64,000 bases of DNA from Heloderma charlesbogerti (Eukaryota > Chordata > Lepidosauria > Squamata > Helodermatidae): positions 310,001 through 374,000 of the forward strand of contig JANEZZ010002363.1 in NCBI GenBank assembly GCA_026122225.1, written 5' to 3'. The position numbers were made by a program, and so were the translations under genes. This document shows, piece by piece, positions 2,862 to 60,515 of the stretch (positions are counted from its first letter, which is position 1; every line of letters begins with the position of its first letter). The notes beneath the pieces are model-generated. The model worked only from the letters and a program-made list of their open reading frames with translations, searched no databases and was not told the origin of the DNA.

Positions 2862-3796
2862 TAGGGATGTACGAAAGTCACTTACTGTTTCGTGGATCTG
2901 CTTTGCGGTGGGGGGGAGGCGCTCCATCCCTCCCCCCGGAATCCTCGATGGGGGGGAGGCGCTCCATCCCTCCCTGCCGGGACTGCCTGGCCAGCTCTGC
3001 TCCACGGGGATTCTGTGGAGCCGCTGGCCGGCTCCGCCCGCAGCCGGACATCCGGCCGTTGGGCAGCAGGGACGCAAATGGCGGCTGCCGTAGCCACCAT
3101 TTGCGTCCCTGTATTTAACCATGATAGGCTACGTAAATATTTATGTAGCCTATTACGGCAAAGTAAAAAAAAAAACATGTACGCAAATGGCGGTGGCTAA
3201 GGCGGCTGGCATTGGCGTTCCTTTTTTTCCGCCGTTTTAGCCTACGTAAATGTTTACGTAAGCTATTACGGCGAAAAAAAAGGGGAACGCAAATAGCATA
3301 GTGGACGCTATTTGCATTCCCCTTTTTTCCCCGCTGTAATAGCTTACGTAAATATTTACGTAGGCTAAAACGGCAAAGAAAAGGCACGCAAATGGCAGCC
3401 GCCGTAGCCGCCGGCATTTGCGTACGTGGGGTTTTTTTTAACCTTGTTGTGATAGGCTACGTAAATACTTACATAGCCTATCACGGCCTCCGCAGGGACG
3501 CAAAAGGCGTCCCTGCGTTAGCCGTGATAGGCTATGTAAGTATTTACGTAGCCTATCACGTTTATGAAGAGGAAGCGAATGGCGGCCGTGGAGGCAGCTG
3601 CCATTCGCTAGTCGGCGCGGACAGCAGCAGGTTAGTGGTCCGTTTCGCGTGCGTGTAGTGGGTTGGGGGCGCCGTTCCGGGCCCATTTTGCGTGGTGGGG
3701 GGCGGGGGGGCTTCATTCCGCCATGGATTTCGGGGGGCCGAATGCACTGGCATTCGGCCTCACCGAGATCCATGGTGGAATTCTCCGCCATCCCTA
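2862..3796 (+). mobile_element. Palindrome-rich hAT-like element, copy 1
   Basis: A 935-bp insertion in the BovB copy. It starts tagggatgtacg and ends gccatcccta, so the ends are inverted TAGGGATG, and it is flanked by a perfect 8-bp duplication gttgagtt (2854-2861 and 3797-3804). These are hAT hallmarks. The left part carries two tandem G/C-rich units (ggggggaggcgctcc at about 2909 and 2954). The core (about 3060-3565) alternates two palindrome types: acgcaaatggcggc-type and gataggctacgtaaat-type. Around 3302 the core is symmetric over about 245 bp. The right end has a subterminal hairpin (about 3717-3785). It encodes no transposase and must be mobilised in trans. Confidence 0.88.
3180..3425. 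repeat. Nested palindrome in hAT-like copy 1
   Basis: Centred near 3302, the order of modules left of centre (aaatggcggtggc, then gccgttttagcctacg, then ggggaacgcaaatagc) is repeated in inverted order on the right. Each module is also a palindrome on its own, for example cctacgtaaatgtttacgta. The result is a palindrome made of palindromes. Confidence 0.85.
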
Positions 3797-3804
3797 GTTG
3801 AGTT

Positions 3805-3993
3805 TCGAACCAGATTTTGCACTCTCCACTTTCACCCTCAACAAAAGGCTCTTTAGATCTTCTTCGCTTTCTGCCATTAGGGTGGTATTGTCTGCATATC
3901 TGAGGTTGTTGATAATTCTCCCGGCAATCTTAATTCCAACCTTCCATCCAACCCAGCGTTTCTCATGATGTTCTCTGCATATAAGTTAAATAA
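3805..3993 (-). mobile_element. BovB LINE, part 2 (upstream of the hAT insertion)
   Basis: The BovB reading frame continues here on the minus strand with RYADNTTLMAESEEDLKSLL, which precedes MASGPITSW in BovB ORF2. The RT catalytic box is divergent (RYADN where Y/F-A-D-D is expected). Homology fades near 3993 after ctgcatataagttaaataag, the 5' truncation point. The join with part 1 across copy 1 shows that the LINE was already in place when the hAT element inserted. Confidence 0.88.
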
Positions 3994-4335
3994 GCAGATT
4001 CAAATGGGTCCCAGGTCCCCCTACTCCAGGAGGAGCCCTCAGTACCCCCTTCTATACCTACCCAGCCTGAGGATGTAGTACTCCCATCAACATCTGACTG
4101 TGCGGATGATTCCCCTCCAGCTTCTGCTGTCCCTCAGCCACACAAGAGCATGGGACTGCAGAAAGAGACACCAGACTTCTAAGAACTTCACTCAGCATCC
4201 AGCAGGGGTAAGGCCGCTGAAAGACCAAGCTCTGCCAGCCTTCTGAAGGCCACAGTTGACCACAGTCCTTTGCTGGGACAACGGTTCCTAATGAGAGAAT
4301 ACTCGAGCCAGCACGTCCTGCGGTGTGCTGTCCAA
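3994..4335. other. Unassigned segment
   Basis: Pro/Ser-rich chance frames occur, but I recognise no repeat family or gene. Confidence 0.4.
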
Positions 4336-4397
4336 AGTTGGTATAGAAATTGGGCAGTATAGAAATGAAATAAATGAATGAATGAATGAATGAATGA
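4336..4397 (+). repeat. LINE-like tail with (AATG)n microsatellite
   Basis: A gggcagtatagaaatgaaat-type L2-like 3' end is followed by a tetranucleotide run of AATG from about 4372 to 4397, the usual arrangement at the end of L2-type LINEs and their SINEs. Confidence 0.55.
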
Positions 4398-4541
4398 TGT
4401 AAGTCATGACATGAGTCCTGCCTTGCTTGGTGTAACCCCAAACAGACCATGAATACCATGTTGCAGTCTGCTTCTGCTGGGCTTTATGCCTAGTTAGGAA
4501 ACTTTGACTGGCACAAACTCAAATAAAATCCTTTATGCAGG

Positions 4542-4586
4542 TTACTGTGTTAAACAGTAACACAGTTTACTGTGTTAAACAGTAAC
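4542..4586. repeat. Exact 20-bp tandem duplication with internal dyad
   Basis: The 20-mer ttactgtgttaaacagtaac occurs at 4542-4561 and again at 4567-4586, 25 bp apart. Each copy contains ttactgt...acagtaa arms, so each is a small dyad. No flanking element is recognised. Confidence 0.85.
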
Positions 4587-4639
4587 CTTCACGCTGCCAT
4601 AATTATCTTTCTTGGTGCTTTTATTGTAATATTCAGTGA

Positions 4640-8731: not shown

Positions 8732-9033
8732 CAGGGTTGGCCCGAGGCAATTTGCTGCCTGAGGCAAAGGACAAAACGCCCCGCCTCCTTCCATTCCACA
8801 TACAGGAGCTGATTGCCCTGGCAGTTGAATCAACGCTAGCAACAGATCAGCAACTGCCATCACATCTGAACGCAACTGGCTACTTTAGGAGGTGCAGGTC
8901 AGACTGTCCTCCAAGACAGGGGGATGGCTGTGGGGCTCAGGACAAATGGCTGGAGGGCACCCAGTGTTGCCCTCCCCAGTATCAGCTGCCTGAGGTGGTT
9001 GCCTCACCCTGCCTAATGGAAGGGCCAGCCCTA
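8732..9033. mobile_element. Non-autonomous hAT-like element
   Basis: Begins cagggttggcccgaggca and ends agggccagccctaa, an imperfect inverted terminal pair. The interior carries tgctgcctgaggcaaagga and, near the other end, agctgcctgaggtggttgcc, so subterminal repeats are inverted too. A relative lies in the opposite direction at about 21555-21875. No flanking 8-bp duplication is clear. Confidence 0.6.
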
Positions 9034-9096
9034 AAAATCACCAATTGGACCTGAGGCCTATGTTATATGTCTGCAACTTGCAACAGGTGAAGAAGA

Positions 9097-9145
9097 AGGT
9101 GTTTGGTACTACAACTGGAAGAGCCAGTTGTAGTACCAAACACCT
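9097..9145. repeat. Perfect 22-bp inverted repeat, 5-nt loop
   Basis: The left arm, positions 9097-9118, runs from aggtgtttgg to tactacaactgg. The right arm, 9124-9145, is its exact reverse complement. The 5-nt spacer is aagag. There is no U-rich tail, so a terminator reading is not supported. Confidence 0.9.
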
Positions 9146-10149
9146 AGGAGCAAATGAAGATGTAAGTATTGGACAAAATGGTTAGCAGCATGAGTGGCTG
9201 AATAACTGAGACCACAAAGTAAAGGCTTGGCAAAGCAAACTTTACCTGATTATATAAGGCACACACAATGCTGAACAGAACTCAAGTTTTATACACAGGA
9301 AGCCCAAAGTAACAAGCAAAGGTCTTTGGCTCAACCTGACGGTTAAGGCAACATTCCCATCTTTGTTTACCCAGGTCTTCCTGCAGGCATCCAGGACACT
9401 AAATTAGCTCTGCGTCCTGTGTGACCCCTGCTATATTTTTAAAACCCTAACAACAAATTAACCCTTAGGTTGCCTCTTTTTTGGTGCAAATCCCTGCCAT
9501 CGCTTTTCCAACAAAAATTAAGTTTGGGAAATATTGTAGGTTTGTACAGGGCTGCTAAGTGACTTGTGCATTGTTTATATGTAGTATGTTACTGGCTTAT
9601 ATGCTTTTTAGCAGAGGGTGGAAGGGGCAGGGGGCGAGAATCTGCTTACATGTAAATTCTTACCTATCTGTGCCTACTCATTGTTTCATTGTTTAATAAT
9701 AGTTTATCTTCCACCATTGCTGTAAATCAGAACTTTCCAAACTCTGTTCCTGGGATTCTTCACAGAAACTTATATGGGGTTCCTCAGTAATGCAAAACGC
9801 CACACAAAATAATCTTGATGCAGCCATTTGTAAAAATCAAGCCAAGTTTGCTTTTTTTGTGGTGGTTTATCTGTGTGCTGAAGTACACATGCACATTAGT
9901 AACACCAGGCACAAAAAGGATTTTCATGCAATTACTTTCAGAATTGCTTTTTAAACAGCATTTTATCAATGCACTTGTGAGCATTTGTGATGCAGAGGTG
10001 GAAGAGACATGAAGGAACTGAAAGCCAAGGCAAACTGCATGCACAGTCATCTGTACAAAATAGGCTGCAATCCTTCACCCACTTTATTTAGGAGTGCACT
10101 GTCAGAAATAAAAAATGGAACCACGGAAAGCTAATCCATTAATAAATTA
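9146..10149. other. No feature recognised
   Basis: AT-rich sequence leading up to the 5' truncation of the CR1 element. Open frames near 9784-10050 lack recognisable motifs. Confidence 0.5.
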
Positions 10150-10187: not shown

Positions 10188-10650
10188 TTGTGGATTGTTT
10201 ATTCCACCAAAGGAATAATCGGGGAGGACTATTCCTCATGGGTTAGAGACGTGACTGAAAGGTTGCCTGCACTCATAAAGCCCACTGACAGGTATCCCTT
10301 CCTTCTCATCCATGTGGGAACAAATGATACCGCCAAGCGGAGCTACGAAGAGATCACGTCAGACTTTGAAGCTTTGGGAAGGAAACTCAAGAACTTTGGG
10401 GCCCAGATAGTTTTCTCATCCATCCTTCCGGTAGTTAGAAGAGGGATAGAAAGGGAACAAAAAATACTCCAGGTGAATGACTGGCCATGAAGGTGGTACC
10501 GATGAGAGAGATTTGGATTCTGGGACCACGAGCTATACTTCCTAGAAGATGGGCTATAGGCAAGGGACGGGTTGCACCTCACAAAGGATGGGAAGAATGT
10601 ATTTGGCCACAGCTTGAAGAACTTCATCAGGAGGGCTTTAAATTGAATCC
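10188..10650 (+). pseudogene. CR1 ORF1 esterase (SGNH hydrolase) domain, broken
   Basis: The frame 10188-10490 carries the esterase core: LLIHVGTNDTAKRSYEEI, with the GxND block, then DFEALGRKLKNFGAQIVFSS and ILPVVRRG. After a frame change near 10486 the domain tail continues ([16 protein letters not shown], then LHQEGFKLN) to about 10650. The first SGNH block with the catalytic Ser is missing because of 5' truncation. In CR1 the esterase is part of ORF1, thought to act on lipids or membranes during retrotransposition. The tail is in the same frame as the following endonuclease, with no stop between them. Confidence 0.85.
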
Positions 10651-10789
10651 TACGGGGAAGGGAGATGTAAAGTTGGGGGTAACAATGGATGTAGGCTCAT
10701 GCACTGCAACAGAGAGAACAGCTCTAATAGCGCCCAATAATAGTCTTAAGACACATGTAGGAAGAAAGCCAGACTATGAAACACATGGT

Positions 10790-11389
10790 CTTCGATGTCT
10801 ATATACTAATGCCCAGAGTATGGGAAACAAACAGAACGAACTTGAACTCTTAATACAAGAGGGAAATTATGACTTGACAGGTATAACTGAGACTTGGTGG
10901 GATGAGTCTCATGACTGGAATACAGCAATTGAAGGATATAACTTGTTTAAAAAGAACAGGAGGAACAGAAAGAGAGGTAGGGTTGCACTGTATGTGAAAA
11001 ATACGTATCTCTGCACAGAAATACAGGAGGATGAGCTTGGTAGCCCCATCGAGAGCATCTGGATCAAAATAAATGCAGCAAAGAATAAAAGGAACCTGAT
11101 GGTCGGAGTCTACTACCGGCCACCCAATCAAGCAGAAGACGAGGATGTAACTTTTGAAAAGCAAATAGCCAATGTTTTAAGGAAGCATGATGTAGTATTA
11201 TTGGGGGACTTCAATTTCCTCGATATTTGTTGGGAGACAAATTCTGCAAAACATGGCCCCTCCAAGAAATTCCTGACTTGTGTGTCGGATAACTTCCTCC
11301 TACAGAAAGTAGAGGACGGAACCAGAGGCTCAACTATCCTTGATTTGATCCTAACCAACACAGATGTTGGTTATCCACACAGTGGATAA
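10790..11389 (+). pseudogene. CR1 ORF2 endonuclease (APE) domain
   Basis: APE-type endonuclease motifs in order: [32 protein letters not shown] with the catalytic Glu, [32 protein letters not shown] and TILDLILTN. The final Ser-Asp-His motif falls after a frame change near 11370 and reads SNH, so the Asp is replaced. The domain makes the first nick in target-primed reverse transcription. It is largely intact by residues but could not be translated as one protein. Confidence 0.9.
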
Positions 11390-13175: not shown

Positions 13176-13180
13176 GAAGG

Positions 13181-13559
13181 ATGGACAAGGTGGAAAGGGT
13201 TCAGAGGAGGGCAACAAAGATGATCAGGGGACTGGAAACAAAGCCCTATGAAGAGAGACTGAAAGAACTGGGCATGTTTAGCCTTGAGAAGAGAAGACTG
13301 AGGGGAGATATGATAGCGCTCTTCAAGTACTTGAAAGGTTGTCACAGAGACAAAGGCCAGGATCTCGTCTCGATCATCCCAGAGTGCAGGACACGGAATA
13401 ATGGGTTCAAGTGACAGGAAGCCAGATTCTGGCTGAACATCAGGAAAAACTTCCTGACTGTTAGAGCAATACGACAATGGAACCAATTACCTAGGGAGGT
13501 AGTGGGCTCTCCCACTCTGGGGGCATTCAAGATGAGGCTGGACAGCCATCTGTCGGGGA
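13181..13559 (+). pseudogene. CR1 ORF2 C-terminal domain
   Basis: After the frame change the C-terminal region reads [20 protein letters not shown], then [17 protein letters not shown] and, past an in-frame TGA at 13412, IRKNFLTVRAIRQWNQLPRE to the end near 13559. This conserved block follows the RT in CR1 proteins. It matches the minus-strand copy at 29884-30078 almost residue for residue. Confidence 0.9.
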
Positions 13560-13650
13560 TGCTCTGACTTGGATTCCTGCAGTGAGCAGGGGGTTGGACT
13601 CGATGGTCTTGTAGGCCCCTTCCAACCCTACTATACTATGATTCTATGAA

Positions 13651-19491: not shown

Positions 19492-20081
19492 AGGGTTGGC
19501 GGAGAATTTCTCCTCGAAACTTCGGGGGGCCGAACACGTTGGCGCTCAGCCCCCCGAAGTTTCGGGGAGAAATTCTCCACCCCCCCGCCCCCCCACCCCC
19601 ACCCCCTGGGACGGGACTTACCTTTCCTGAATGTCCCTCCCGGCGGCGGGTCCCGGCGGCGGTTCGCCGGGTCTTCGTCAGGGGTGGGGGCGGCAGCCGA
19701 TCTTTCGACTGGCTGCTGCCGCCGCCATTCCAATAAAAGTAAAAAAAAACGCCCCCGTGATAGGCTACGTGATGATTAACGTAGCCTATCACGGCTAGAT
19801 TTGCAAAGTCAGCCGTGATAGGCTACGTAAATCGTCACGTAGCCTATCACGGGGGCGTTTTTTTTTTTTTTACTTTTTATTTCGCGGCCGGGCGAGGTGC
19901 CTCCTCCCCGGTCTGAATTTCGGCCGGGCAAGGCGGGAAGCCTCCCCCCCAGCCTGAATTTCGGCCGGGCGAGGCGGGAAGCCTCCCCCCCCGGCCTGAA
20001 CTTCGGGGGGAGAGCAGCGAAGCGCCTCCCCCCCACCGCGAAAAGTTGCAAGACCAGGTAAGTGGCTTTCGTGCACCCGTA
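19492..20081 (+). mobile_element. Palindrome-rich hAT-like element, copy 2
   Basis: A 590-bp insertion in the Tc1 element. Flanks ccaggttt (19484-19491) and ccaggtat (20082-20089) agree at 7 of 8. It begins agggttggcgg and ends gcacccgta, worn versions of the family ends. The left end is a strong hairpin (arms about 19500-19530 and 19549-19579). Near the centre are two gtgataggctacgt-type palindromes (about 19757-19797 and 19811-19852). The right part has three G/C-rich tandem units with aagcctcccccc. Donor-like ggtaagt motifs lie near 19615-19621 (minus) and 20057-20063 (plus). Confidence 0.85.
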
Positions 20082-20125
20082 CCAGGTATTAAAGGCGATG
20101 CTTAAGTTTGAAATGATGTTGGTTT

Positions 20126-31031: not shown

Positions 31032-31110
31032 TTGAGACCACCTCTGCCAGCTTGGTCAGGGAGGCTGCTGGGCAGCAGGGTGGGTGGTACACCAGCAGCA
31101 TCCCCCAATC

Positions 31111-31263
31111 TGTGCGGAGCACAGCCGGCCAGCCAGGATTCCAGGGGGGAGGGAGGAACGGAGCGCCTCCCCCCCGGCGAGGATTCCGGGGGGAGAGACG
31201 GAGTGCCTCCCCCCCAACCATAAACATAATCTGCGAAAGGTAAGTACCTTTCATACAACCCTA
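31111..31263. mobile_element. Palindrome-rich hAT-like element, copy 7 (end fragment)
   Basis: Only one end of the family is present. It starts at about tgtgcggagcacagccggcc, has two tandem G/C-rich units (cggagcgcctccccccc and cggagtgcctccccccc) and ends gcgaaaggtaagtacctttc then atacaaccct and a. The palindromic core and the other end are missing. It matches the right end of copy 5 closely. The left boundary meets L2 DNA directly and no target duplication can be paired. Confidence 0.75.
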
Positions 31264-34136: not shown

Positions 34137-34773
34137 TAGGGATGGCAGAGAATTCTGCCATGGACTCCAGTGAGGCCAGATTCTAAAGAATCTGCCCCCC
34201 CGGAGTCCATGGCAGAACAGACTGCTCCCCCCTGCCACCTCGTGAAGTCCCCATGGACCGGATCCTACCTGCCTCGGTCGGGTCCGGATCCAGCCACTGC
34301 TGTCTGCCACTCCACTCTGTGGCCACGAATGGCGTCCCCTATGCAGGACACCATTTGCATCACTGCTTTAAATGTGATAGGCTAAGTAAATATTTACATA
34401 GCCTATCATGGCTAAAGCGGGGATGCAAATGGCATAGGGCATGCCATTTGCGTCCCTGCCAGGCCGTGATAGGCTACGTAAGTATTTACGTAGCCTATCA
34501 TGGCTAAAGTGGGGATACAAATGGCATAGGGGATACCATTTGCGTCCCTGCTCTTTGCCATGATAGGCTACATAAATACTTACGTAGCCTATCACGGCCT
34601 GGCAGGGACGCAAATGGTGGTTGGTGTAGTGGCCGCCATTTGCGGCTGCAGCCCAGCAGCGGCCAGAAGTCCGGCTTCAGCCGGCCGGGAAGGATTCCGA
34701 GGGAGGGACGGATCGCCTCCCCCCCCCACCGGGCTGCCGGACCGGAATAGGGTGAGTATTCCGCACACCCCTA
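34137..34773 (+). mobile_element. Palindrome-rich hAT-like element, copy 3
   Basis: 637 bp, starting tagggatggcagagaattct and ending cgcacacccctа-type (cacaccccta). Flanks gatgcaag (34129-34136) and gatgcaaa (34774-34781) agree at 7 of 8. The left end is a hairpin built on ctgccatggactcc and ggagtccatggcag. The core (34330-34640) alternates gataggctacgtaa palindromes with catttgcgtccctg modules. Only one G/C-rich unit precedes the right end, and the donor-like motif there is gggtgagt. Orientation is the reverse of copy 1. Confidence 0.87.
34369..34620. repeat. Palindrome array of copy 3
   Basis: Three gataggct...agcctatca palindromes (about 34376-34410, 34467-34503 and 34560-34596) are separated by modules carrying gcaaatggcatagg and its inverse, about 90 bp apart. 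The array is largely symmetric around 34485. Confidence 0.85.
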
Positions 34774-39199: not shown

Positions 39200-39800
39200 T
39201 AGGGATGTACGAAAGTGACTTACCTTTAACAAAATTTGATTCGAGGTGGGGGGGAGGCGCTCCGTCCCTCCCCCCCCCAATTCTGGCGGGGGGAGGTGCT
39301 CCATCCCTCCCCCCCGAAATTCTGGCTGGGGGGGAGGCGCTCTGTCCCTCCCCCCCCGAATCCTGGCCGGCCGGGTGCGCAAATGGTGGTGGCCGTAGCC
39401 ACTGCCGTTTGCGTCCCTGCAGTCAGCCGTGATAGGCTACGTAAATGTTTATGTAGCCTATCACGGCTGATTTAAAAGAAAAAAAACGTGCGTACGCAAA
39501 TGGCGGCACCCATGGGCGCCGCCATTTGCGTACGCACTTCCCCCCCCTTTAAATCAGCTGTGATAGGGTACGTAAACATTTACGTAGCCTATCACGGTAT
39601 TTTTAAAAAATCTAGCCATGATAGGTTACGTAAATCTTTATGTAGCCTATCACGTTTCGTGTTTTTTTTTACTGGAAATGGTGGTGGTGGCAGCCGGTCG
39701 GAAGACCGGCCGCCGCAGCTGCCACCACCGAACCGCCGCCAGAGCCACTGCCGCCAGGAGGATTCACCCAAGGTAAGTCCCGTCCCAGGGGAGGGCGGGG
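39200..39800 (+). mobile_element. Palindrome-rich hAT-like element, copy 4 (right end lost)
   Basis: Starts tagggatgtacgaaagtgac, preceded by ctattctc. Three tandem G/C-rich units follow (39245-39365). The core holds palindromes at about 39377-39415, 39424-39468, 39488-39537 (19-bp perfect arms), 39551-39598 and 39612-39654. An ATG-led open segment (39679-39773) runs into a donor-like aaggtaagtc at 39772. The usual hairpin end and second ctattctc are absent: the sequence dissolves into the G-rich tract that follows. Confidence 0.85.
39488..39537. repeat. Perfect palindrome arms, gtgcgtacgcaaatggcgg
   Basis: gtgcgtacgcaaatggcgg (39488-39506) is exactly inverted at 39519-39537, with an imperfect 12-nt centre, giving a 50-bp near-perfect palindrome in copy 4. 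Confidence 0.95.
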
Positions 39801-40320
39801 GTGCCAAGGGGGGGGAAGGGGGGGGGCGGGGGGGGGGGGGGGGGTGTGGGCGGGGGGGAGGTCCGGGTGGTTCGGGGGCGAAAAGTAGAGGGGTGGAACA
39901 GGGCGGGGGGGGGGGGGGGGGCGCGATGGTTGAGGGATGGGGGATTGTGAGAGAGGGGGGAAGGGAAGAGTGGGGAGGGAGGGGGGGTGGGGGAGGGTGC
40001 GTTGAGTGAGGTTGTATAAGAGGAAGTAGTGAGAGGAGAGATACTTGTGATGAGGGAAGTGTCTGAGTATAATGATGAGAGGGGTTGGTGATGGAGTGGG
40101 CTTGGGAGAGGGGGGTGCGAAAGTATTGGTGGGTAATGTGTAGTGTGCGGATTAGTGATGGAGTATGGGTTTTATGAATGTAGTTGAAAAGAAAATGAGT
40201 TTAAGGAATGATAATGTGATATATAAAGAGGGGGGTGGGTATGTTGGTGATGGTGAGGAGGATTGTTGTTGAGATATTTGGTTAGGTTGAATTAATTAAA
40301 TAATGAGAAGTTTATTTGAT
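39790..40320 (+). other. G-rich, cytosine-depleted tract
   Basis: 39790-39960 is dominated by long G runs. The next 360 bases (39961-40320) contain only about six C on this strand, falling to none over the last 120, while G and T remain common. Normal composition returns abruptly at about 40330 (gattacaacttactctta). The expected right end of copy 4 is not found. Either this is real strand-asymmetric DNA or a sequencing/assembly fault after a poly-G tract. Confidence 0.8.
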
Positions 40321-42968: not shown

Positions 42969-42981
42969 TCCCTGTGTGACC

Positions 42982-43885
42982 TAGGGATGTCAGAGAATTC
43001 CGCCACGGATCTCAGGGAGGCCGAATGCCAGCACATTCGGCCCCCTGAAATCAGTGGCGGAACAGTCTGCCCCCCCCGCCAGCGGAACGGTCTGCCCCCC
43101 CCGCCCCCCCGGGACGAGACTTACCTGGGGTGGATCTTCCTGGCTGCGGCGGCTGCGGCGGCAGCTCCAGCGGCGGTTTGGCAGTGGCGGCAGCGGTGGC
43201 CGGTCTTCCCACCAGCTGCCGCCGCCGCCATTTCCAGTTAAAAAAAAAACATGATAGGCTACGTAAAGGTTTATGTAGCCTATCACGGCTGACTTTTAAA
43301 AAAAAACAAGTGCGTATGCTAATGGTGGCGGCCGCGGCCGCCGCCATTTGCATTCACTATTTTGGCACGTCTTAGTCTACATCAAGATTTACTTAGACTA
43401 AGATGGCAAAAATAAGGGGAACGCAAATAGCGTAGCTTCCGCTACGCTATTTACGTTCCCCTTATTTTCGCCGTCTTAGTCTACGTAAATCTTGATGTAG
43501 ACTAAGACGTGCCAAAATAAGGAATGCAAATGGCGGCGGCTGTGGCCGCCACCATTTGTGTATGCGCGTGTTGTTTTTTTAAGTCAGCTGTGATAGGCTA
43601 CGTAAACATTTACGTAGCCTATCACGGCTGACTGCAGGGATGCAAACGGCAGTGGCTACGGCCGCCACCATTTTCGTCCCTGCTAGCCAGTGGCCGGATG
43701 TCCAGCTGTTGGCAGAGCTGGCCTGTGGCTCTGCAGAATCCCTGCGGAGCACAGCTGGCCGGCCAGGATTCCGGCGGGGGAGAAACAGAGCACCTCCCCC
43801 CATCCAGGATTCCGGGGGGAGGGACGAAGCACCTCCCCCCCATCAACATAATCCGTGAAAGGTAAGTACCTTTCGTACATCCCCA
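42982..43885 (-). mobile_element. Palindrome-rich hAT-like element, copy 5
   Basis: 904 bp in the ERV-A leader. Perfect 8-bp duplication gtgtgacc (42974-42981 and 43886-43893). The same leader without the insertion is seen in ERV-B near 54372, which confirms the empty site. Left end tagggatgtcagagaattc with a hairpin (about 42995-43062); right end ggtaagtacctttcgtacat then cccca. The core 43252-43628 is one palindrome with arms of about 185 bp, itself composed of short palindromes. Two tandem G/C-rich units lie at 43770-43850. Donor-like motifs are at 43119-43127 (minus) and 43858-43867 (plus). Confidence 0.93.
43252..43628. repeat. Large nested palindrome in copy 5
   Basis: Symmetric about 43437 (gcgtagcttccgctacgc). 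Modules on the left in order (gataggctacgtaaa, cgtatgctaatggtggc, cttagtctacatcaag, ggggaacgcaaatagc) come back inverted on the right. Each arm is about 185 bp with few differences and almost no spacer. Confidence 0.93.
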
Positions 43886-51689: not shown

Positions 51690-52430
51690 GGGTGGGGGGG
51701 GAGAGACGTCCCAAGCCCATGGGAGGCGACCAATAGGGCTGTGATATACACGCCCCGACTCGGCTCAGCAGCCAGGCGCCCCTCCCAACAGGCAGGCTGG
51801 GCTGACCAGTGGGGGGGGGCAGTCAGACCGCCGCTTGGAGCGCTGCCGCCGGCAAACACCGGCGCCGCGCTCACCCGCCTGCCGACGCCCCCCACTGGGA
51901 GCAACACCTCAGGGAGGCCGGCAAGGCGAGGAGGAAGAGGCCGGCAAGGCCGGTGGCCGGGTAGACAGGCCGGCAGGCAGGCCATGAGCTGGCCTGGCGG
52001 CCAGTGGGCCGGTCAGGCAAGCGGGTGGGCGGGTAGGGCGAGCGAGCAGGCGGGCAGGTGATTGAGCGGGCGGGCGGCGGGCGGGTTGAGCGAGCGCGCG
52101 GGCGGGTGGGCGAGTGGGCAGGAGAGCAAGTACACGAGGAGACCGAACGGATGGGCGGGCGAGAGGAAAGGAGCCGGCGAAGGAGGGAGGGAGGTGAACA
52201 ATATCACCAAGCGAAGATTTTAGCGCGCAGAAGCACGCTGGGTCCAGGCGGCTGGAACGAAGACGAAGCCGTTCTCCAGCAGGCCAAAGTCCCTCGTCGT
52301 GACTGAGAAGAAAGGAGGGGGCGGGCGCACTGCAGCCTCAAGAGCCGGGGCCCTCAGCGTGCGCGACGACACCGGTCTCCAGCAGGCAGGTGTCCTTCGT
52401 CGTTTCTGGCGGAGCTGTAGTTCTCTCTAG
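51690..52430. repeat. GC-rich, CpG-dense tract with ggcgggcgg units
   Basis: Very high G+C with many CpG. 51985-52140 is made of degenerate gcgggtgggcgggtagggcg-type units. A 30-bp motif with ctccagcaggc...gtcc[c/t]tcgtcgt occurs twice (about 52273 and 52378). It lies inside the YR element between A1 and ORF1. Open frames rich in Gly, Arg, Ala and Pro are composition artefacts. Confidence 0.7.
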
Positions 52431-52614
52431 CTGCATTGAGCCAGAGAGCTGAGTTTGAGAAGGGGGCTGAGTTTAAGGCAACTCAGCCTGCCCCTCCTTG
52501 CATGGTGGTGCCACTGGGGTGCACCAATCAAAGGCCCCTGCGTCATGTCACCCCACCCGCCTGCAATGCCCCCCCCCTTTTAGCCAGACAAGCTGGCGCC
52601 GGGTGAGGGCATTT
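52431..52614 (-). repeat. YR retrotransposon repeat A1
   Basis: Terminal repeat at the element's 5' end, ending ggtgagggcattt before ERV-A sequence resumes with ctgtctagaaaagggg. Confidence 0.92.
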
Positions 52615-53896
52615 CTGTCTAGAAAAGGGGGGGGACAGCAAATTCTCTTAAGTTAAGAGGTGAGAGGGGAAGATCTCCCCCCTCTCCCGTGACACCTCTA
52701 GGCACAGCTGTTAATCCTGAGCCAATCGGGCAGAGCGTGGAAGCTCAGCCCCTGCGATTGTTTGCTTGTGCCTGCATCTGCGCCTTGTGTCTAAAGAGTC
52801 CAGGTTGTCTTTTCCTCACCTCCCCTGTCTGCCATCACTCACAGAGCTGCATAAAGAGAGAGCCTCTCTGTCCAGCTGTGTTTCTGAAGCCTGAGACAGT
52901 TCCTGCCACACATGTTCCAGCTCTTTCTCAAAATCTGAACTGTTCTGACACTCTGTATGCTCAGAGGCAGCCTGACACTCTGCCAGAACGCATGCAGCAT
53001 GGAGTTGCCAATGCAAAAATGATGGCTTAGAACTATTTGCATGTATGAGAATGCCCTTCCCTTGATCTTGATGGGTTCTGACCATGCAGCCAGAGGAGCA
53101 GTATGATTGCTAGATCTGCTCCATCATGCTTTACCATGCAAGAAATTTTTTCCATTCATGGTGTTAGATTTCAATGAAAGTTTGTTGTGTGTATGCGATA
53201 TTTGCTGTTAGTTGCAACTATGTTAGTGCCACCCCCCCCCCAAAAAAAAAGATGTAAAGAGAGATAGAGTAAATAGCAGACAAGGCAGAAGAAGGAAGCA
53301 GATAAAAGGCTGGACAGAATGCAGCTTTGATTGCAGTGGCAGTCACAGGGCGAGCCCCTGATTAGGTAAATAAAGGCTTGAAGAAGGATTTTAGAACTTG
53401 GAGAAAGAACTGTTGTAGAGAAAAAGATATTGGCAAAAGGACTGCCCGAAGCTAAAGGGGGAGAAGAGGGGGGCCATGGTAGCCATAAAAAGAGAAGAAC
53501 CAGACTGATGAAGACCAGAGTCCAAAACCTCCACCCTGAAGGGCTGCTTGGCTCTGAAGAACCCTTTAGTTATAATAAGAGTAAAAAGGAAGTGAAATAA
53601 TGAGACTTATTGACACAAGAGCGACCTATTGCATGAATTTGTTGTGTCTAAAAGATGCCCAGTTGCACTACTCAGTCGAGACTTGTTGACAAAAATTACA
53701 AGCAGAGATTTTCTTTCAAGATAATGAGATGGTTGTCAAGTTGTCAAACTTGCAAAAGAACAATACCAGAGTGTCGTTGTGGCGAGCAAAGCCCCTAAGG
53801 AAGTGTAAGCAAAAAGGCACCTGCCAGGGCAGAGTTTGTTAAGCCCGTACAGACTTACCTTAAGCACAGAGCTCAATCGATAAAGGTTAAACAATA
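52615..53896 (+). pseudogene. ERV-A nucleocapsid and protease remnants
   Basis: ERV-A resumes after the YR element. At about 53400-53480 is the nucleocapsid region (Arg/Lys-rich, zinc knuckle not intact). At about 53600-53640 is a protease remnant with LIDTRATY, where the Gly of the Asp-Thr-Gly active site is Arg. The rest is frame-shifted. ERV-B has a shorter version of the region before nucleocapsid: about 150 bp near 52700-52870 are absent there, between two cagctgt sequences. Confidence 0.7.
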
Positions 53897-53900
53897 CCCT

Positions 53901-54347
53901 TGTTATAGAAATTTCAGTTGTAATATGTCTGTTATCCCATGATTTTATAAGCTAGGCTATGTCTGTTTTACCTCAGTGTGAGACTGCCATGCTAAACAAA
54001 GACACAGCGCCTTATCAGAGACTCAGGAATGCCAAGAATGTGTTTACTAGAGTACAAGGCTACCTCTCTGCACATGCCTAGATATGTCAAAGGTGCTGCC
54101 TGTCTTCTGTTTCCCTCTCAGCTAGACAAAGAGATTAGTACAGCGCAAGCGTAAGACAGCCCCAAAGGTCTTGCCTATATAAACTTTTGAATCACATCAC
54201 TTGATTGTAACCTTTGTTGGAGCGTTAGCCCCAAGGGTTACCTTATTCTGCAGAATAAAATCGTGTTGGACCAGATCTCTGCCTCCTCTCATTCTTGGTA
54301 AACTATTTGGAAAGTCTACCAGGGAGAAGAACACAATTTTTGTAACA
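53901..54347 (+). repeat. ERV-B 5' LTR
   Basis: 447 bp. TATA box tatataaa at 54176-54183 and polyadenylation signal aataaa at 54254-54259. Compared with ERV-A LTRs it has a slightly different U3, so it forms a sister subgroup. Confidence 0.95.
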
Positions 54348-56258
54348 AATTTGGCCACCGCGGAGGACGCCCTGTGTGACCTGGGAGCTAGGCAAACGCT
54401 GGATCAACCCAAGCGGAGGGCGCCCTGGACCTTGTTTGGTTCACCGTGAGGTTTGAGGCAGCTGTTGCCTGGCAACCCAGCTAGCAAAGGACTCCTGAAG
54501 AGACGAGGCGAGTGGCGGTCTTTGGAGGACAGGACGAAACGCTGTCCGACTCTGGGGTCGTTTGGAGGCTGAGCTACGAGGTAAGTTGGATCGCACTGTC
54601 TGGGCCGTCTGGGGAGTGCAAATCTCCCATTCTTGTCTAACTGAGCCTTGCTTAAGCAGCAGTTGGGAAAGAAAAAATAAAAAAAATTGGCCGACAGGAT
54701 AGGATCAAAACTTTCGTAGGAGAAAATAGCCAAGACCCACTGGGATGCATGCTTAAGAATTTTAAGTTGTTTAATGACAAAAGATGAGCTCATAAAGTTT
54801 TGTAATGGGGAATGGGTGACATTTAGTGTTGGCTGGCCAACTGGGGGAAGCTGAAGAAAAAATGTTGGGTCCAAGGTATATAATAAAGTGATTGTTGATA
54901 ACCATGGGGATCAGCTGCCTTATATTGATGCTTGGCAAATGTGGATATTGAAAAATCCTGACTGAATAAGAAAACATAAAGGTCAATATTGTAAAGTCAT
55001 GATGGTATGCTCCGAGATGAAGCCCAAAGCCCCTGTTCTCCCTGACTCAAGCCCCACGGAAAGAGCTTGGAGATTAAGAGATCCTGCCCAAGGCTCCCTG
55101 GGTTTCCCCTGCCCTATTCGGCCTGTTAGGTTGGGAGGAAAGGTTGCTGGGGGAGGAGGGAGAGAAGCCCCCCCCCACGGAGAACCCACCTGTTACATCC
55201 CCACGTCTCGCTCGGTCTAGCTCCTTCTAAGTTGAAACATCTTCCAGTGTATTCAAGTTTGTTAGAGGAAGCAAGAACAGCTACAACAACAACAAAAAAG
55301 TTGTAAACTCTGAAGAAAGAGATTTGTTCAAAGTCTTAAAGACTGTGGCAAAATTAAAGGAACAAAGACAGAGCAATGTCTGGGTCTGTGTAAGCTTATC
55401 TCTGCCAGTCTATTGAGAGCAGAGCTAAGGGGGGGTTGCCCGGCCCCACCAGAAGATGCCTGTAAGGACCTAATAGAAACAGTAAGATTTGCAAAAGAAT
55501 TGCCCAAGTTAAAGCATCACAGCTGGAAAGCTGAGCAGACCTTGCTCTTATCTGTCGAAGAATCTAAAAGAGGTGTAAGGTTACACCTTCCACTCTTAAA
55601 CTAAGGAAAAGACAGATAGCCTTTGCTAACATCCCATTTTTTATTGCCCAAAGCTTTTTTGGATCCATTATTGTTTGGATTTTTGAGAGGCACTCTGCAC
55701 ATGGATTAGAACTTTAGACTGTTAGAGATTTGCCATGAACAGTACTGTGAGGCTTGTCATAGCCATAAACTCCGGTTGTTGTAAATTGTGTGTTTGTTTG
55801 TGATCAGCTCAGTGCACAGTTTGATTTGTAACTTCAACACTCAGATAAAAAGCTGTATTTCCAAGGCTTTGAGAGATTCACAGACTACAAAGGAAGCAGC
55901 CTTCAAAAAGTTCAAAGAGAAACTACGAAAGTTAGTTTCCGTTTAGAAAAAAAGGGGGCCAATAAATTGTATTAAAAAGTGAGAGAGGAAAATTCCCCCT
56001 CCCCTTCTCCTGTGGCATCTCTAAGCCCAGCTGTGCTTCTAAAGCCTGAGAAAGTTCCTGCCCCACGTGTTCTAGCTCTTTCTCAAAATCTGAACTGTCT
56101 GGACACTCTAAATGCTCAGAGGCAAGCTTGTCACTCTGTCAAAATTCATAAAGTGTGGAGTTGCCGATGCAAAAATGGTGGCTTAAAACTTTTTGCATAT
56201 ATAAAAATGCCCTTCCCTTGATCTTAATGGGCCCTGGCTGTGTAGCCAGAAGAACAGT
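54348..56258 (+). other. ERV-B leader / former gag region
   Basis: PBS candidate tggccaccgcggaggacg at 54352-54369. A donor-like gaggtaagttgg occurs at 54578. No gag frame; many stops. Collinear with ERV-A 42946-45525 plus 52615-53270. Confidence 0.7.
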
Positions 56259-56281
56259 ATGATTGCCAGATCTGCTCCACC

Positions 56282-56878
56282 ATGCCCTGCAATGAAAAAA
56301 AAATGTTTTTCAGTCACGCTGTTAGATTTCAATGGTGTAAAGCAGAAAAGGCAAGGAAAAAAAAAAAAAAGAGAAAGCTGCATTTGGGAAGAGATGAATG
56401 CGCTTACTATAAAGAGAAGGGACATTGGCGAAAAGACTGCCCAAAGCGAAAGGGGAAGAAGAGGGGGGCTATGGTGGCCATAAAAGGGAAAGAGGACCAG
56501 CCGTGGGTGTCCTTGCTTCAATATTCAAATGACCTTCTTCTGGCCACCCAGACAGAGGACTCATGTGCTAAAGCTACTATCTCCCTCTTGCAAGAATTAA
56601 ACTTGAAAGGCTATAAAGTGTCAAGAGAAAAGGCTCAGATTTGCCAGACCCATGTCACCTTCTTGGGCTACCTGATTCGAAAGGGAACCAGAGACCTGAG
56701 CACTGCTCGGTTGGACGTCATACAGAAGACACAGAGGCCTAAAGACCCTCGAGAGTTGCGAGCCTTCCTTGGGCTCACCGGGTTTTGTACAATGTGGATA
56801 CCTGATTATGGAGGGAAAGCGAAGCCCCTGTATGAAGCTTTGACAAAAAAATATCATCCACTGAAAATGGACAAATAA
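56282..56878 (+). pseudogene. ERV-B nucleocapsid joined to RT remnant
   Basis: A 198-codon open frame. Its first third is a nucleocapsid end with one zinc-knuckle-like motif (CAYYKEKGHWRKDC) in which the second Cys is Tyr. The frame then passes directly into the late RT palm: YSNDLLLA, where the first Asp of the Y-x-D-D box is Asn, then the RT thumb/connection with FLGYLIRKG and LRAFLGLTGFC. Protease and most of RT have been deleted between the two parts. It encodes no working enzyme. Confidence 0.85.
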
Positions 56879-57960
56879 AATGGAAAAGGCTTTTCTTAAG
56901 GTGAAGCAAGCCTTGGTGTCGCCACCTGCTCTGGCCTTACCAGATCCCGACAAACCGTACCGGCTCTGTGTACATGAAAATAAAGGAGTGGCATCAAGGG
57001 TTTTGACCCAAAGGACAGGTCCTTCCTAGAGACTTGTAGGATACTACTCGAAGACTCTGGATCCAACCGCAAAGAGATGGCCTGCTTGCTTAAGGGCCGT
57101 GGCAGCAACTGTGCTTTTATCCGTCACGCCAGTCACGCTATGAGATCTTCCCTGCTTTCAAGCCCAGGCCTCATCCTGCCACCTTGCTCCCTAAGCCAGA
57201 TCTCAATTGTTATGACTGTTTAAAAATTTTGAGTCAGGTGACTCTGGTTAGGCCTGACCTCACTGATTCCTTGTTACCAAAGCCAAACCTTAAGGTGTTT
57301 GTAGATACACAAGATGTGCAGTAGTTACTCTTGAAAAAGCGTATGGAAAGAGTGCCAATCCCGAAAAAAATAAGAGGCAATGCTTTGGCAGATAAGACTG
57401 CAAAAGAAGCCGCACAAATGAGAAGTGAGGAGGTGCATTATGAAAGAGCCCTAATCCCATATTTGAGTACAGATTTGGTTCCAATCTACTCTCCAGCTGA
57501 GCATGAGAGAGCTCTTGAATACAAGGCAAAGCAAACTAAAGATGGATGGTAGATAGTCCCAAGAGGCAAAGTGTTCATATCCAGGCCTCTTCTGAGCTTC
57601 TGAGCTGACTTGCACCGGGCTACACATCTAAGAAAAATTGCAATAGAAGATCTACTCGTGAGACACAGTGTAGCCCCTAAATTAAAATGGCCACAGGCCT
57701 TGCCAATCGTCTTAACTCGAATACAGTGCACCCCCAGGGGAAGTATTAGATTGACACCGTTTAAAATGTTATATGGGCGCCCACCTCAGATGTTACCTAT
57801 GGCTGATAGTTTAAATGTAAACTTAGAAGTAGGGGCTTTAAAGATCCATGAATATGTTACTGCCTTGCAGTCTGTTTTGTCTTGTCTTCACAGGTTCGCA
57901 GCACCATACCAATCCTTGCCTTTAGATGCTCCAGTGCATAATTTCAGTCCTGGTAATTAG
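56879..57960 (+). pseudogene. ERV-B RNase H and integrase remnants, core deleted
   Basis: 56880-57330: shifted remnants of the connection and RNase H domains. 57331-57552: RNase H end with GNALADKTAKEAA. 57610-57960: the integrase zinc-domain start (LLVRHSVAPKL) joins directly to the integrase C-terminal part (TPFKMLYGRPPQ, then NFSPGN). ERV-A has about 500 bp between these points, coding for the catalytic core; ERV-B has lost all of it. Stops replace Trp codons near 57550 and 57958. Confidence 0.85.
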
Positions 57961-58321
57961 GTGCTGATCCAGTCCTGGAAAGATGAACCACTTACTGAGA
58001 AATGAAAGGGTCCATTCCAGGTTCTACTCACCACTCACACAGCTGTAAAAGTTGCTAGAAGAAAGAAGTGCATCCATCACACCCACATAAAAGCATCACC
58101 TGCACCAGAGAGGGTCACACCGGAAGCTGACCCACCTAAAGGCCACCGTTAAAGTAGCAAACCACTAGAAAAATAGGGCAACTTATAAAACAAATGAGTA
58201 AAAACTGTGATGACACTGTAATAATTGGAAAACAACTGTCAGATTCAGAACCAAACAAGGTAGGGGGTGAACTAGTTACAGGATTGCTGACCCTGGGTTT
58301 ATACCTAAAAATTATTGCAGA

Positions 58322-58600
58322 AAAAGTATCCTAGGCCTCACTTGCCATTTAGAAGAGACCATCAGTGCCACAGCCATAATGGTAAGGGCCATGCAATCTG
58401 AAATTGAAGATCTCAGCCAGCTGGTGGCCCAGTATCGGTTTGTTTTAGATTATCTCTTAGCACGCCAAGGTGGCTTCTGCACCCTAGTGAAGCAAGGGTG
58501 TAGAGTAAAGTTCCATGATTTAAACAAAACCATAAAAGGTGAAATTGCCAAACTACAAGATATGATTGGACAGAATTATTCAGGAGCAAGTGATCCTTAG
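58322..58600 (+). pseudogene. ERV-B envelope TM remnant
   Basis: The frame 58379-58600 carries the TM heptad-repeat region (MVRAMQSEIEDLSQLVAQY), a disulfide-loop segment FCTLVKQGC with a Cys-X6-Cys pair, and LNKTIKGEIAKLQDMIGQ with an N-glycosylation site. Surface subunit and fusion peptide are absent. The membrane anchor follows in decayed form near 58640-58720. Type I TM of gamma-like viruses is the best match. Confidence 0.75.
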
Positions 58601-58756
58601 TTATAGTTGACTTCCTGGCTCCCTGATTTTGCATGATTAAAACAACTTGTAATCAATGCAGTCTTGTTTGTTATGATACTATTGATGCTGGTTTGTGCCT
58701 TTAAGTGTGTAGTCCACTGCTGGACCAAAGAGAGGTGTGAGATTTAAGAAAAGCCT

Positions 58757-58769
58757 TTTGAGGGGGGAC
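58757..58769 (+). promoter_or_regulatory. ERV-B polypurine tract
   Basis: gaggggggac lies directly before the 3' LTR, the expected place of the plus-strand primer. ERV-A has ttttgaggggggag at 62453-62466. Confidence 0.75.
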
Positions 58770-59216
58770 TGTTATAGAAATTTCAGTTGTAATATGTCTG
58801 TTATCCCATGATTTTATAAGCTAGGCTATGTCTGTTTTACCTCAGTGTGAGACTGCCATGCTAAACAAAGACACAGCGCCTTATCAGAGACTCAGGAATG
58901 CCAAGAATGTGTTTACTAGAGTACAAGGCTACCTCTCTGCACATGCCTAGATATGTCAAAGGTGCTGCCTGTCTTCTGTTTCCCTCTCAGCTAGACAAAG
59001 AGATTAGTACAGCGCAAGCGTAAGACAGCCCCAAAGGTCTTGCCTATATAAACTTTTGAATCACATCACTTGATTGTAACCTTTGTTGGAGCGTTAGCCC
59101 CAAGGGTTACCTTATTCTGCAGAATAAAATCGTGTTGGACCAGATCTCTGCCTCCTCTCATTCTTGGTAAACTATTTGGAAAGTCTACCAGGGAGAAGAA
59201 CACAATTTTTGTAACA
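58770..59216 (+). repeat. ERV-B 3' LTR
   Basis: Same 447-bp sequence as the 5' LTR, no differences found by eye. Confidence 0.95.
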
Positions 59217-59220
59217 CCCT

Positions 59221-59635
59221 TTGCCATTAAAAGTTTAAAAGAGACTGAAACCTTTGATTAACCTGATTATAAAAAAGAAGGCAAAGCCCCTATATGAAGC
59301 TTTGACAAAAATATTACCTAGACAATTGAAATTAAAAGGCTTTTCTTAAATTGAAGCAAGCCTTGATATTACCACCGGCTTTAGCCTTATCAGACCCCAG
59401 ATCATGAAACTTTTAGATGCCTTGATGAAGCCAAAAGAAGTAGCTGTGATGCACATGAGAGCACACAGAAAGAGTGCCATTCCCAAAGAAAGAAAAGGCA
59501 ATGCTTTGGCAGATAAGGCTTCAAAAGTAGCAGCATAGATAAGAGATGAAAAAGTATATTATGAAGGAGCCCTAATCCCATACTTAAGCACAGACTTGGT
59601 TCCAAAGTATTCCCCAGCTGAAAATTAGGGATGTT
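59221..59635 (+). pseudogene. ERV-A connection / RNase H remnant
   Basis: ERV-A resumes after ERV-B. Stop-broken frames give a pol connection remnant and the RNase H end with GNALADKASK (about 59498-59530). Cut by copy 6 at 59636, inside the spacer before integrase. Confidence 0.75.
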
Positions 59636-60515
59636 CGAAAGTCACTTACCTTTCCGCGGATTATGTTGATGGGAGGGGGAGGCGTTCTGTCCCTCCCCCC
59701 AGAACCCTCAGTGGGGGGGAGGCGATCCGTTCCTCCCCCCCGAATCCTCCACAGCCAGCTGTGCTGTACGGCAGCTCTGCAGAGCAGCCGGCCTGGCCCA
59801 GGCCAGAGCCGTCCGCAGCCAGATTTCTGGCCGCGGAGGGCTCTGGGTAAAAACAAACAAACAAAAAAACGCGTACGCAAATGGCGGTGGCTACGGCCGC
59901 CGCCATTTGCGTTCCTTATTTTTGGCCATCTTAATCTATGTAAATATTTATGTAGACTATGATGGCGAAAATAAAGGGGAATGCAAATAGTGTAGCGGGA
60001 GCTATTTGCATCCCTTTTTGATTCACCGTTTTAGCCTCTGTAAATAATTATGCAGGCTAAAACGGCAAATCAAAAAGGGATGCAAATAGCGCCTGCTACG
60101 CTATTTGCATTTCCCTTTATTTTCGCCATCATAGTCTACGTAAATATTTATGTAGACTAAGACGGCCAAAAATAAGGAATGCAAATGGTGGCGGCCGTAG
60201 CCGCCGCCATTTGCGTATGCGGGGTGTGTGTGTTTTTTTACCTAGCCATGATAGGCTATGTAAGTCTTTACGTAGCCTATCATGTCTCGTAAACAAAAAA
60301 CTAAAAATGACAAGATTGCAAATGGCGGCGGCAGCAGCCGGTCGGAAGACCAGCCGCCACTGCCGCCCGGAACATCCACCCCAGGCAAGTCTCGTCCCGG
60401 GGGGGGTCAATGGGGGGGCAGGGGGGGCAGGCCATTCCGCCACGGAGTTCGGGGGGCTGAATGCACTGGCATTTGGTCTCACCGAGATGTGTGGCGGAAT
60501 TCTCTGACATCCCTA
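59636..60515 (+). mobile_element. Palindrome-rich hAT-like element, copy 6
   Basis: 880 bp in the ERV-A pol region. Perfect 8-bp duplication ctgaaaat (59628-59635, 60516-60523). Left end tagggatgttcgaaagtcac with ggtaagt on the minus strand; two tandem G/C-rich units; core 59871-60221 symmetric around 60046; another gataggctatgtaag palindrome at 60246-60290; an ATG-led open segment (60322-60384) ending at a caggcaagt donor-like site; right end hairpin (about 60423-60505) and gacatcccta. Octamer atgcaaat occurs several times in the core. Confidence 0.93.
59871..60221. repeat. Large nested palindrome in copy 6
   Basis: The outermost modules gtacgcaaatggcggtggct (59873) and the inverse of catttgcgtatgcg (60208) pair, then the ccttatttttggcc / ggccaaaaataagg pair, the tctatgtaaatatttatgta modules, then ggggaatgcaaatag / ctatttgcatttccc, with a ttttagcc...ggctaaaa palindrome at the centre. 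About 350 bp in total. Confidence 0.92.

Follow-up and report, generated by a model that had tools for sequence, protein, structure and literature searches.

The window, a stretch of 64,000 nucleotides from Heloderma charlesbogerti, contains copies of a family of short transposable elements whose interior is a long palindrome built of short palindromic modules. The account which we favour, with slightly better than even confidence, is that these are nonautonomous, MITE-like hAT elements, in which the core is an inverted duplication of a right-end module array, the two arms are homogenised in the source elements, and the modules bind proteins encoded by the element family. The copies in the window, with their flanking 8-bp duplications (TSDs), are as follows.

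2862..3796, plus strand: copy 1, subfamily A, complete, 935 bp; TSD GTTGAGTT, 8/8, at 2854-2861 and 3797-3804
19492..20081, minus strand: copy 2, small-core type like the copy at locus L097; TSD CCAGGTTT/CCAGGTAT, 7/8, terminal T ambiguous
31107..31263, minus strand: copy 3, end fragment of 157 bp, coreless, equivalent to B-type bases 1-153
34137..34773, minus strand: copy 4, divergent type; TSD GATGCAAG/GATGCAAA, 7/8
39200..39801, plus strand: copy 5, right-truncated; a TSD was searched for and none found
42982..43885, minus strand: copy 6, subfamily B, complete; TSD GTGTGACC, 8/8, at 42974-42981 and 43886-43893
59626..60515, plus strand: copy 7, subfamily C, complete; TSD CTGAAAAT, 8/8, at 59618-59625 and 60516-60523

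The sequence-only reading had counted seven copies with common ends and 8-bp duplications. The family is confirmed, although the copy placed at 31111 is a mere 157-bp end fragment and the last copy begins at 59626 rather than 59636; the duplications are perfect at 2862, 42982 and 59626, imperfect at 19492 and 34137, and were not found at 39200. The copies then numbered 1, 5 and 6 correspond to those at 2862, 42982 and 59626 only when the 31111 fragment is left uncounted. Judged by eye, copy 2 sits inside a Tc1-like transposase frame.

The palindromic cores in the window are the following.

3097..3507, unstranded: core of copy 1, 411 bp, 342/401 positions self-complementary
19734..19872, unstranded: core of copy 2, two b modules mirrored, 139 bp, 130/136
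34444..34617, unstranded: core of copy 4, 174 bp, 156/171
39427..39597, unstranded: core of copy 5, 171 bp, 148/170
43252..43624, unstranded: core of copy 6, 373 bp, 332/370
59843..60245, unstranded: core of copy 7, 403 bp, 350/400

Each copy was aligned with its own reverse complement, and the score was compared with those of 100 dinucleotide shuffles of that copy. Copies 1, 6 and 7 scored 425, 526 and 526, against shuffle maxima of 40, 37 and 43, and copies 2, 4 and 5 scored 212, 243 and 220, against maxima of 50, 44 and 58; the copy 3 fragment (31107-31263) scored 26, inside the shuffle range (maximum 38). The earlier view that alternating short palindromes within a mirrored core were unlikely to have arisen by chance is thus borne out by scores far above the shuffle maxima. 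The mirror itself is real, but its arms are longer than the 120-185 bp first described, the whole palindromes of copies 1, 6 and 7 spanning 411, 373 and 403 bp.

Genome-wide, copies 1, 6 and 7 represent three subfamilies, A, B and C, all flanked by 8-bp duplications and bounded by TAGGGATG...CATCCCTA. The A consensus has a palindrome of 413 bp at 239-651 of 938 (386/405 self-complementary; score 653, shuffle maximum 48), the B consensus one of 383 bp at 264-646 of 888 (376/382; score 724, shuffle maximum 45) and the C consensus one of 400 bp at 220-619 of 895 (388/394), that is, 95-98.5% self-complementarity. The symmetry is conserved among the genome-wide copies read, which are the best-scoring ones. 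A single 36-bp module palindrome occurs exactly 2,398 times, and a first look gave 11,915-17,730 candidates per query, where queries overlap and not all candidates are confirmed. The small-core and divergent types (copies 2, 4 and L097) are likewise present in several copies each.

The ends were scanned at 90 loci, demanding a 6/8 match to TAGGGATG/CATCCCTA. With the best placement near the expected ends, at least 7/8 of the duplication matched at 70/90 loci and 8/8 at 47/90; at the exact expected ends, the corresponding figures were 41/58 and 24/58. Of the 70 loci that have a duplication, 60 show TAGGGATG exactly and 63 show CATCCCTA exactly. The hAT Ac or Buster groups have the duplication consensus nTnnnnAn or nnnTAnnn; nTnnnnAn was matched by 9 of the 47 perfect duplications and nnnTAnnn by 3. 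The elements are MITE-like in being short (consensuses of 888-938 bp) and high in copy number, in lacking a transposase gene and in having ends in common with an autonomous element. The hAT-like identity proposed from the window holds up, given the 8-bp TSDs, the TAGGGATG ends with YAGGG-type short terminal inverted repeats, and the presence in the genome of a hAT transposase element whose ends match theirs.

That element is a candidate for the autonomous partner for which a search had been suggested, and one complete copy was read.

G000:C235:52195-61581: candidate autonomous hAT element, 9,387 bp; TSD CACAACAC, 8/8; open BED/hAT transposase frame

Its transposase carries the Pfam BED and Dimer_Tnp_hAT domains, and the nearest solved chains are those of Hermes. 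A second gene, on the strand opposite to the transposase, is represented by one Myb/SANT-like exon (PF13837, E 2.4e-9), which begins at C235:60556 on the minus strand. In the last 400 bp or so before the right tip, read in this one copy, lies a single array of short palindromic modules; each of A, B and C aligns to it two times, once per orientation. The left tip equals the right tip of B across 16 bases, and the right end can be aligned with the left ends of A, B and C, although its tip TTGGGGTG matches TAGGGATG at only 6/8. The arm is only ∼78–79% identical to the B arms, which makes C235 a relative and not the direct parent; it is likely an autonomous relative, and may move the short elements. 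A first look gave 434 candidate left ends of autonomous copies; at 40 left ends that were scored, a hAT domain lay downstream in 29, a Myb exon in 24, and both in 20. The internal word CGTACATCCCTA (at most one change), in the 3′ region of the transposase, was considered as an element end and rejected, because an identical CTACACAC follows it in 14/15 copies, L110 being the one that differs.

Near one tip, the elements also carry a BED-site-like motif.

2875..2883, plus strand: BED-site-like quasi-palindrome AAGTCACTT of copy 1, element bases 14-22
59639..59647, plus strand: quasi-palindrome AAGTCACTT of copy 7
20060..20068, minus strand: AAGCCACTT of copy 2, at the end position equivalent to that of the A, B and C motif

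The motif AAGTCACTT is found once per A, B and C consensus, at bases 14-22, and at the same place in the C235 right end, whilst no AAGTCACTT-type pair is present in the first 60 bases of the C235 left end. The pattern is that of Hermes, an AAGT-based quasi-palindrome inside one tip and not the other: the available text of PMC10368747 describes a BED-bound quasi-palindrome within bases 11-27 of the Hermes left end, which AAGTCACTT, as sequence, resembles in form and place. Since the AAGT-type pair occurs once, near the tip and outside the modules, the modules would need another binder, for which the Myb-like protein is our guess as a candidate.

The two arms of the palindrome evolve in concert. 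When the A, B and C consensuses are compared, 20, 13 and 16 columns show concerted change in both arms, 4, 5 and 2 show change in a single arm, and 0 show the orthologous, arm-by-arm pattern. Among inserted copies, paired non-CpG changes number 21 in A, against 8.7 by row permutation (maximum 22), and 34 in B, against 24.4 (maximum 35); at CpG sites there are 97 in A, against 79.0 (maximum 97), and no excess in B (53 against 53.1). Selection on the copies was rejected as the cause, because 15 of the 21 non-CpG pairs in A come from just two loci, L063 and L065, a sublineage with 7 paired double changes in common, so that the excess is read as shared source lineages. The non-CpG divergence of the core equals that of the rest of the element in A and is only slightly below it in B, so that selection on inserted copies is not clearly indicated. 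As the copies read decay neutrally, the symmetry is a property of the source elements that are copied.

The right end of C235 carries one arm of the array, so the best reading of the core is an inverted duplication of this array. This could have happened during formation of a deletion derivative, for example by template switching in repair, and the arms would then be kept alike within source elements through intra-element template switching or conversion. The modules are putative dimeric sites for the family's own proteins, the BED domains of the transposase and/or the Myb/SANT-like protein; a doubled array might capture these better and so be favoured, each copy decaying neutrally once inserted. 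Among the functions first suggested for the core, the position of the array at one end of the autonomous element (one copy) favours a binding array for transposase or host factors. A further-reaching version, which we hold tentatively and at well below even confidence, is that a hAT lineage took up a Harbinger-like two-component recognition, in which transposase and Myb/SANT-like protein read palindromic operators at one end, and that short elements became abundant through head-to-head duplication of the array, the arms evolving as a unit by self-templated repair.

It is also conceivable, though in our judgement unlikely, that the core is a functionless by-product: one inverted duplication, whose hairpin-prone arms homogenise themselves, spread through the tips alone. 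The neutral decay of the copies fits this; so does the fact, described in the available part of PMC8604942, that template switching is known to homogenise the arms of inverted repeats, and so does the existence of the small-core and divergent types in several copies. However, the one autonomous element read has the module array at its end, the types seen have it too, and A, B and C retain both kinds of module in order despite sequence change. Full-length palindromes are expected to be unstable, and their persistence in three sources would suggest some benefit.

Less probable still is that the array is a promoter or CpG-rich regulatory block, whose mirrored copy in the short elements draws host factors through YY1-type and CRE/bZIP-type words and so holds chromatin accessible to insertion or excision. 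The CpG observed/expected ratios of the A, B and C consensuses (1.39, 1.28 and 1.29) are consistent with such a block, the array starts ∼640 bp upstream of the Myb/SANT-like exon in C235, and the YY1-type word AAATGGCGGC picked out in the window is real, with 5, 6 and 5 occurrences in the consensuses. Nevertheless, CpG sites have been heavily mutated since insertion (0.236 in A, 0.189 in B), as expected under methylation, and the bZIP-type word TTACGTAA, also pointed out in the window, is present in copies 1 and 5 and in the A consensus but in no other. The octamer reading fails: ATGCAAAT is near-absent from the consensuses (0, 0 and 1 in A, B and C, against 7 of ACGCAAAT in each), and the copy-by-site cells that now read ATGCAAAT, 58/273 in A and 47/273 in B, are products of CpG decay of ACGCAAAT.

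We think it very improbable that the short elements donate outward-facing first exons. An outward GGTAAGT splice-donor word does lie near both ends of A and B, with open frames from ATG to GGTAAGT, and the C consensus has the same words. The left-end GGTAAGT, however, overlaps an opposite-strand AAGTCACTT and is better explained as a putative BED site, an overlap whose recognition led us to set the splice-donor reading aside; GC-rich DNA is expected to hold open frames anyway, and in A, by eye in the consensus, a TAG interrupts the reading frame that starts at the ATG closest to the right donor. Least probable of all is a source of long hairpin RNA feeding small-RNA pathways. The near-perfect palindromes of 380-410 bp would suit such a source, and the copy 7 core, computed as single-stranded DNA, folds at -182 kcal/mol where 100 shuffles average -50 (z -30); but a fold of this kind is expected of any long palindrome, and the window has no Rfam match at the gathering threshold.

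Among known systems, PIF/Harbinger elements similarly have numerous short nonautonomous partners, of the mPing type. They are defined by a Harbinger transposase and 3-bp duplications, in contrast to the hAT transposase domains and 8-bp duplications found here, which place our elements outside Harbinger. The pairing of a transposase with a Myb-like second gene is a feature in common, not a sign of membership; the Harbinger Myb-like protein binds both the TIRs and the transposase, as described in the accessible part of PMC9179366. Ac/Ds and Hermes, so far as the available portions of PMC3260210 and PMC10368747 describe them, are alike in their 8-bp duplications, TAGGGATG-type tips and BED plus hAT-dimerisation transposase, and in nonautonomous derivatives that share little beyond the ends; the autonomous element here differs in its second, Myb/SANT-like gene. 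Ac/Ds has AAACGG subterminal hexamers, and Ds elements are deletions or filler-DNA elements in the accessible text (PMC3260210), whereas the short elements of this family have a mirrored duplicate of the subterminal array as their interior. The long, dynamically changing inverted repeats of Foldback/Galileo are also similar, but those of Galileo form the termini and go with a P superfamily transposase in the text available (PMC4168063), whereas the short elements of this family have an internal palindrome and two ends that differ beyond ∼8 bp. Inverted repeats homogenised by template switching likewise have arms kept similar; those in the available part of PMC8604942 are short and lie in yeast genes, in contrast to the ∼190–205 bp arms of the source elements of this mobile family. 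Searches of the open-licence literature, available in part, brought up neither a hAT element whose core is modular and mirrored nor one that has a Myb-like gene.

Nonautonomous transposons of short length are often more numerous than their parents, for reasons that are seldom clear. As the short families differ from the likely autonomous relative in the same genome by a doubled recognition-like array, the notion of 'more binding sites, more copies' becomes directly testable. Changing in concert across several source lineages, the arms also preserve a natural vertebrate record of template switching or conversion. A hAT element that has a Myb/SANT-like partner gene would, in turn, carry the two-gene plan beyond Harbinger.

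The central core of these elements, a palindrome built of short palindromic modules, is a strongly non-random and real structure. The mirror symmetry that the sequence-only reading had described in the window is also found in copies beyond it, both in the consensuses of three subfamilies of short nonautonomous elements and among module clusters in the flanks of other copies. Arm-to-arm agreement was taken from the refined consensuses.

Subfamily consensuses and their palindromes
A: 938 bp; palindrome 239-651, 386/405 self-complementary; arm-to-arm agreement 192/203
B: 888 bp; palindrome 264-646, 376/382 self-complementary; arm-to-arm agreement 190/190
C: 895 bp; palindrome 220-619, 388/394 self-complementary; arm-to-arm agreement 190/194

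By eye, the C core has two extra modules and a centre unlike that of A and B, with the mirror retained. One more type, represented by a single genomic copy (L115), has a 509-bp palindrome (478/503), and the exact 36-bp module GTGATAGGCTACGTAAATATTTACGTAGCCTATCAC was found at 2,398 places in the genome against 0 for the control. The less biased sample came from 36 module clusters lying in the fetched flanks; 14 of the 18 that were uncut by the locus edge carried a self-centred palindrome of at least 100 bp. Among copy-4-type relatives the module order seems variable, judging from match coordinates.

Copies of the family in the window
2862-3796: copy 1 (A), complete, perfect 8-bp duplication
19492-20081: copy 2, duplication 7/8
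31107-31263: copy 3, end fragment
34137-34773: copy 4, duplication 7/8
39200 (start): copy 5, right-truncated
42982-43885: copy 6 (B), complete, perfect 8-bp duplication
59626-60515: copy 7 (C), complete, perfect 8-bp duplication

The earlier numbering of seven copies stands for the first copies and is off by one past 31107-31263, an end fragment. The flank of copy 1 resembles a BovB-type LINE; together with the lizard and gecko relatives of the transposase (below), this makes a squamate host probable. By eye, copy 2 breaks up a Tc1-like-looking element (18087-20357) with 235-bp inverted arms (18087-18321 and 20123-20357) and transposase-like frames at 18472-18891 and 19030-19779. Copy 7 lies between retrovirus-like frames at 56282-56878 and 60665-61174, which by eye look CCHC/RT-like and integrase-like, and it seems to sit within an old provirus. 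Elsewhere there are non-LTR reverse transcriptase-looking frames (10487-13175 and 40523-41931, by eye) and a 452-bp inverted repeat, 13196-13647 versus 29651-30102, 96% complementary and 16 kb apart.

Searching the genome (2.30 Gb, 3,246 contigs) gave overlapping sets of 15,796, 17,730, 12,533 and 11,915 first-look candidates with copies 1, 6, 7 and 4, respectively. Forty were scored per query, of which 39, 39, 12 and 0 were read. The resulting 90 loci are the best-scoring copies, a non-random set which includes the window's own three and some apparent mutual duplicates (L015/L016; L026/L027/L028). A target duplication of at least 7/8 was seen in 70/90, 8/8 in 47/90 and none clean in 20/90, these being raw counts for the best placement within 60 bases, with chance matches not subtracted. 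At the exact expected ends the figures were 41/58 and 24/58 for at least 7/8 and 8/8.

The copies read decay neutrally. Mean divergence from consensus was 0.034 (A) and 0.035 (B) at non-CpG positions, and 0.236 and 0.189 at CpG; CpG observed/expected was 1.39, 1.28 and 1.29 in A, B and C. The octamer sites once proposed in the modules do not survive, since the octamer words are products of CpG decay. Non-CpG divergence was about the same in the core as outside it (A, 0.0348 versus 0.0351; B, 0.0343 versus 0.0394), so the symmetry was made or kept in the sources rather than in the inserted copies. In a four-way arm comparison between subfamilies, leaving out columns with a gap (90, 126 and 121), the arms were alike within and unlike between subfamilies at 20 columns for A/B, 13 for A/C and 16 for B/C. 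Single-arm differences numbered 4, 5 and 2, and columns tracking arm identity 0 in each pair. Two A loci that are 87% alike (L063 and L065) depart from the consensus in the same way at 26 non-CpG core positions; 14 of these fall into 7 mirrored pairs and the remaining 12 are unpaired.

A profile search with PF05699 gave 871 candidates, many of the 150 scored having long open frames. One, on contig C235, has an 879-codon frame with Dimer_Tnp_hAT and a zf-BED match of 23.4 bits, just above the 20.6 cut-off. This transposase matched four solved sequences (two Hermes transposase, two labelled only transposase). Of 62 transposase relatives found, the best-scoring five are lizard/gecko proteins with 36-42% identity. 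In three annotated lizard/gecko proteins (P0001, P0003, P0004) SCAN is joined to a transposase of this type, in two of them with KRAB as well; these could be either genuine gene fusions or mistakes of annotation.

The C235 element spans 52195-61581 (9,387 bp; duplication CACAACAC, 8/8). Over 16 bases, this element's left tip matches the B and C right tips exactly. Its right end, read in this one autonomous copy, starts in the inward direction with TTGGGGTGGATG (6/8 against TAGGGATG) and past the tip aligns to the A/B/C left end, then to one arm of the module array. Element bases 9004-9179 match B 257-439 at 79%, and 9004-9172 match B 470-646 at 78%, the two matches running in opposite orientations; in the last 400 bp the palindrome is just 98 bp long, made of two b modules, and the full mirror is absent. 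A Myb_DNA-bind_4 exon (E 2.4e-9), ending in a splice-donor word, lies on the other strand.

Left ends of the autonomous type gave 434 candidates, and the 40 scored were 96-100% identical. At least 29 of these are followed within 15 kb by a hAT domain in the same orientation, and at least 24 have a Myb exon; at least 20 have both and at least 32 either, by a domain list one hAT domain short of the 29. Of 368 candidate Myb exons 40 were scored, and at least 31 come after a hAT domain, at a spacing of 2.6-2.7 kb in 29 of the 31. Short palindromic elements are inserted in several autonomous-family copies (L097 at 169-716, with duplication AATGTGAG 8/8 by eye; L106, L108, L114, L115). Many copies have, within the 3' region of the transposase, the word CGTACATCCCTA, which is the left tip of the short elements in backward reading; it mostly stands ahead of a CA-rich stretch, has one change in C235 (at 58069), and is perhaps an older end's relic.

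Near the tip, AAGTCACTT occupies bases 14-22 in A, B and C and the equivalent place in the C235 right end. Each consensus matches the pattern AAG[TC]N[GA]CTT at this place alone, and the density of the pattern in the window is 0.125 per kb. Copies 1 and 7 carry it, copies 2 and 5 have fitting variants, and copies 4 and 6 have no tip motif of this type. A Hermes study places an AAGT/AAGC quasi-palindrome within bases 11-27 of the left end (A15 to T23 as plotted in the legend), bound cooperatively by two BED domains, and reports no BED domain on the right end (PMC10368747). The likeness lies in an AAGT-type quasi-palindrome near the tip, at the A/B/C left end and the C235 right end. By this analogy, a Hermes-like BED site would account for the motif end better than a splice donor. 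The lone word GGTAAGT near the short elements' opposite (right) end falls outside the BED-site reading. A further word, TAGGGATGAAA, is presumably the Ac tip. It is found once in a maize Ac/Ds paper (PMC3260210).

The array is present as one arm in the C235 element (one copy read) against two in the short elements, and the core may have come from inverted duplication when the short elements formed. The arms would have been homogenised by template switching, known for short inverted repeats (PMC8604942). The modules could be bound dimerically by proteins of the element; the analogy is with Harbinger, whose Myb-like protein binds the TIRs and the transposase (PMC9179366). The family comprises nonautonomous hAT transposons, for which a likely autonomous relative has been found.
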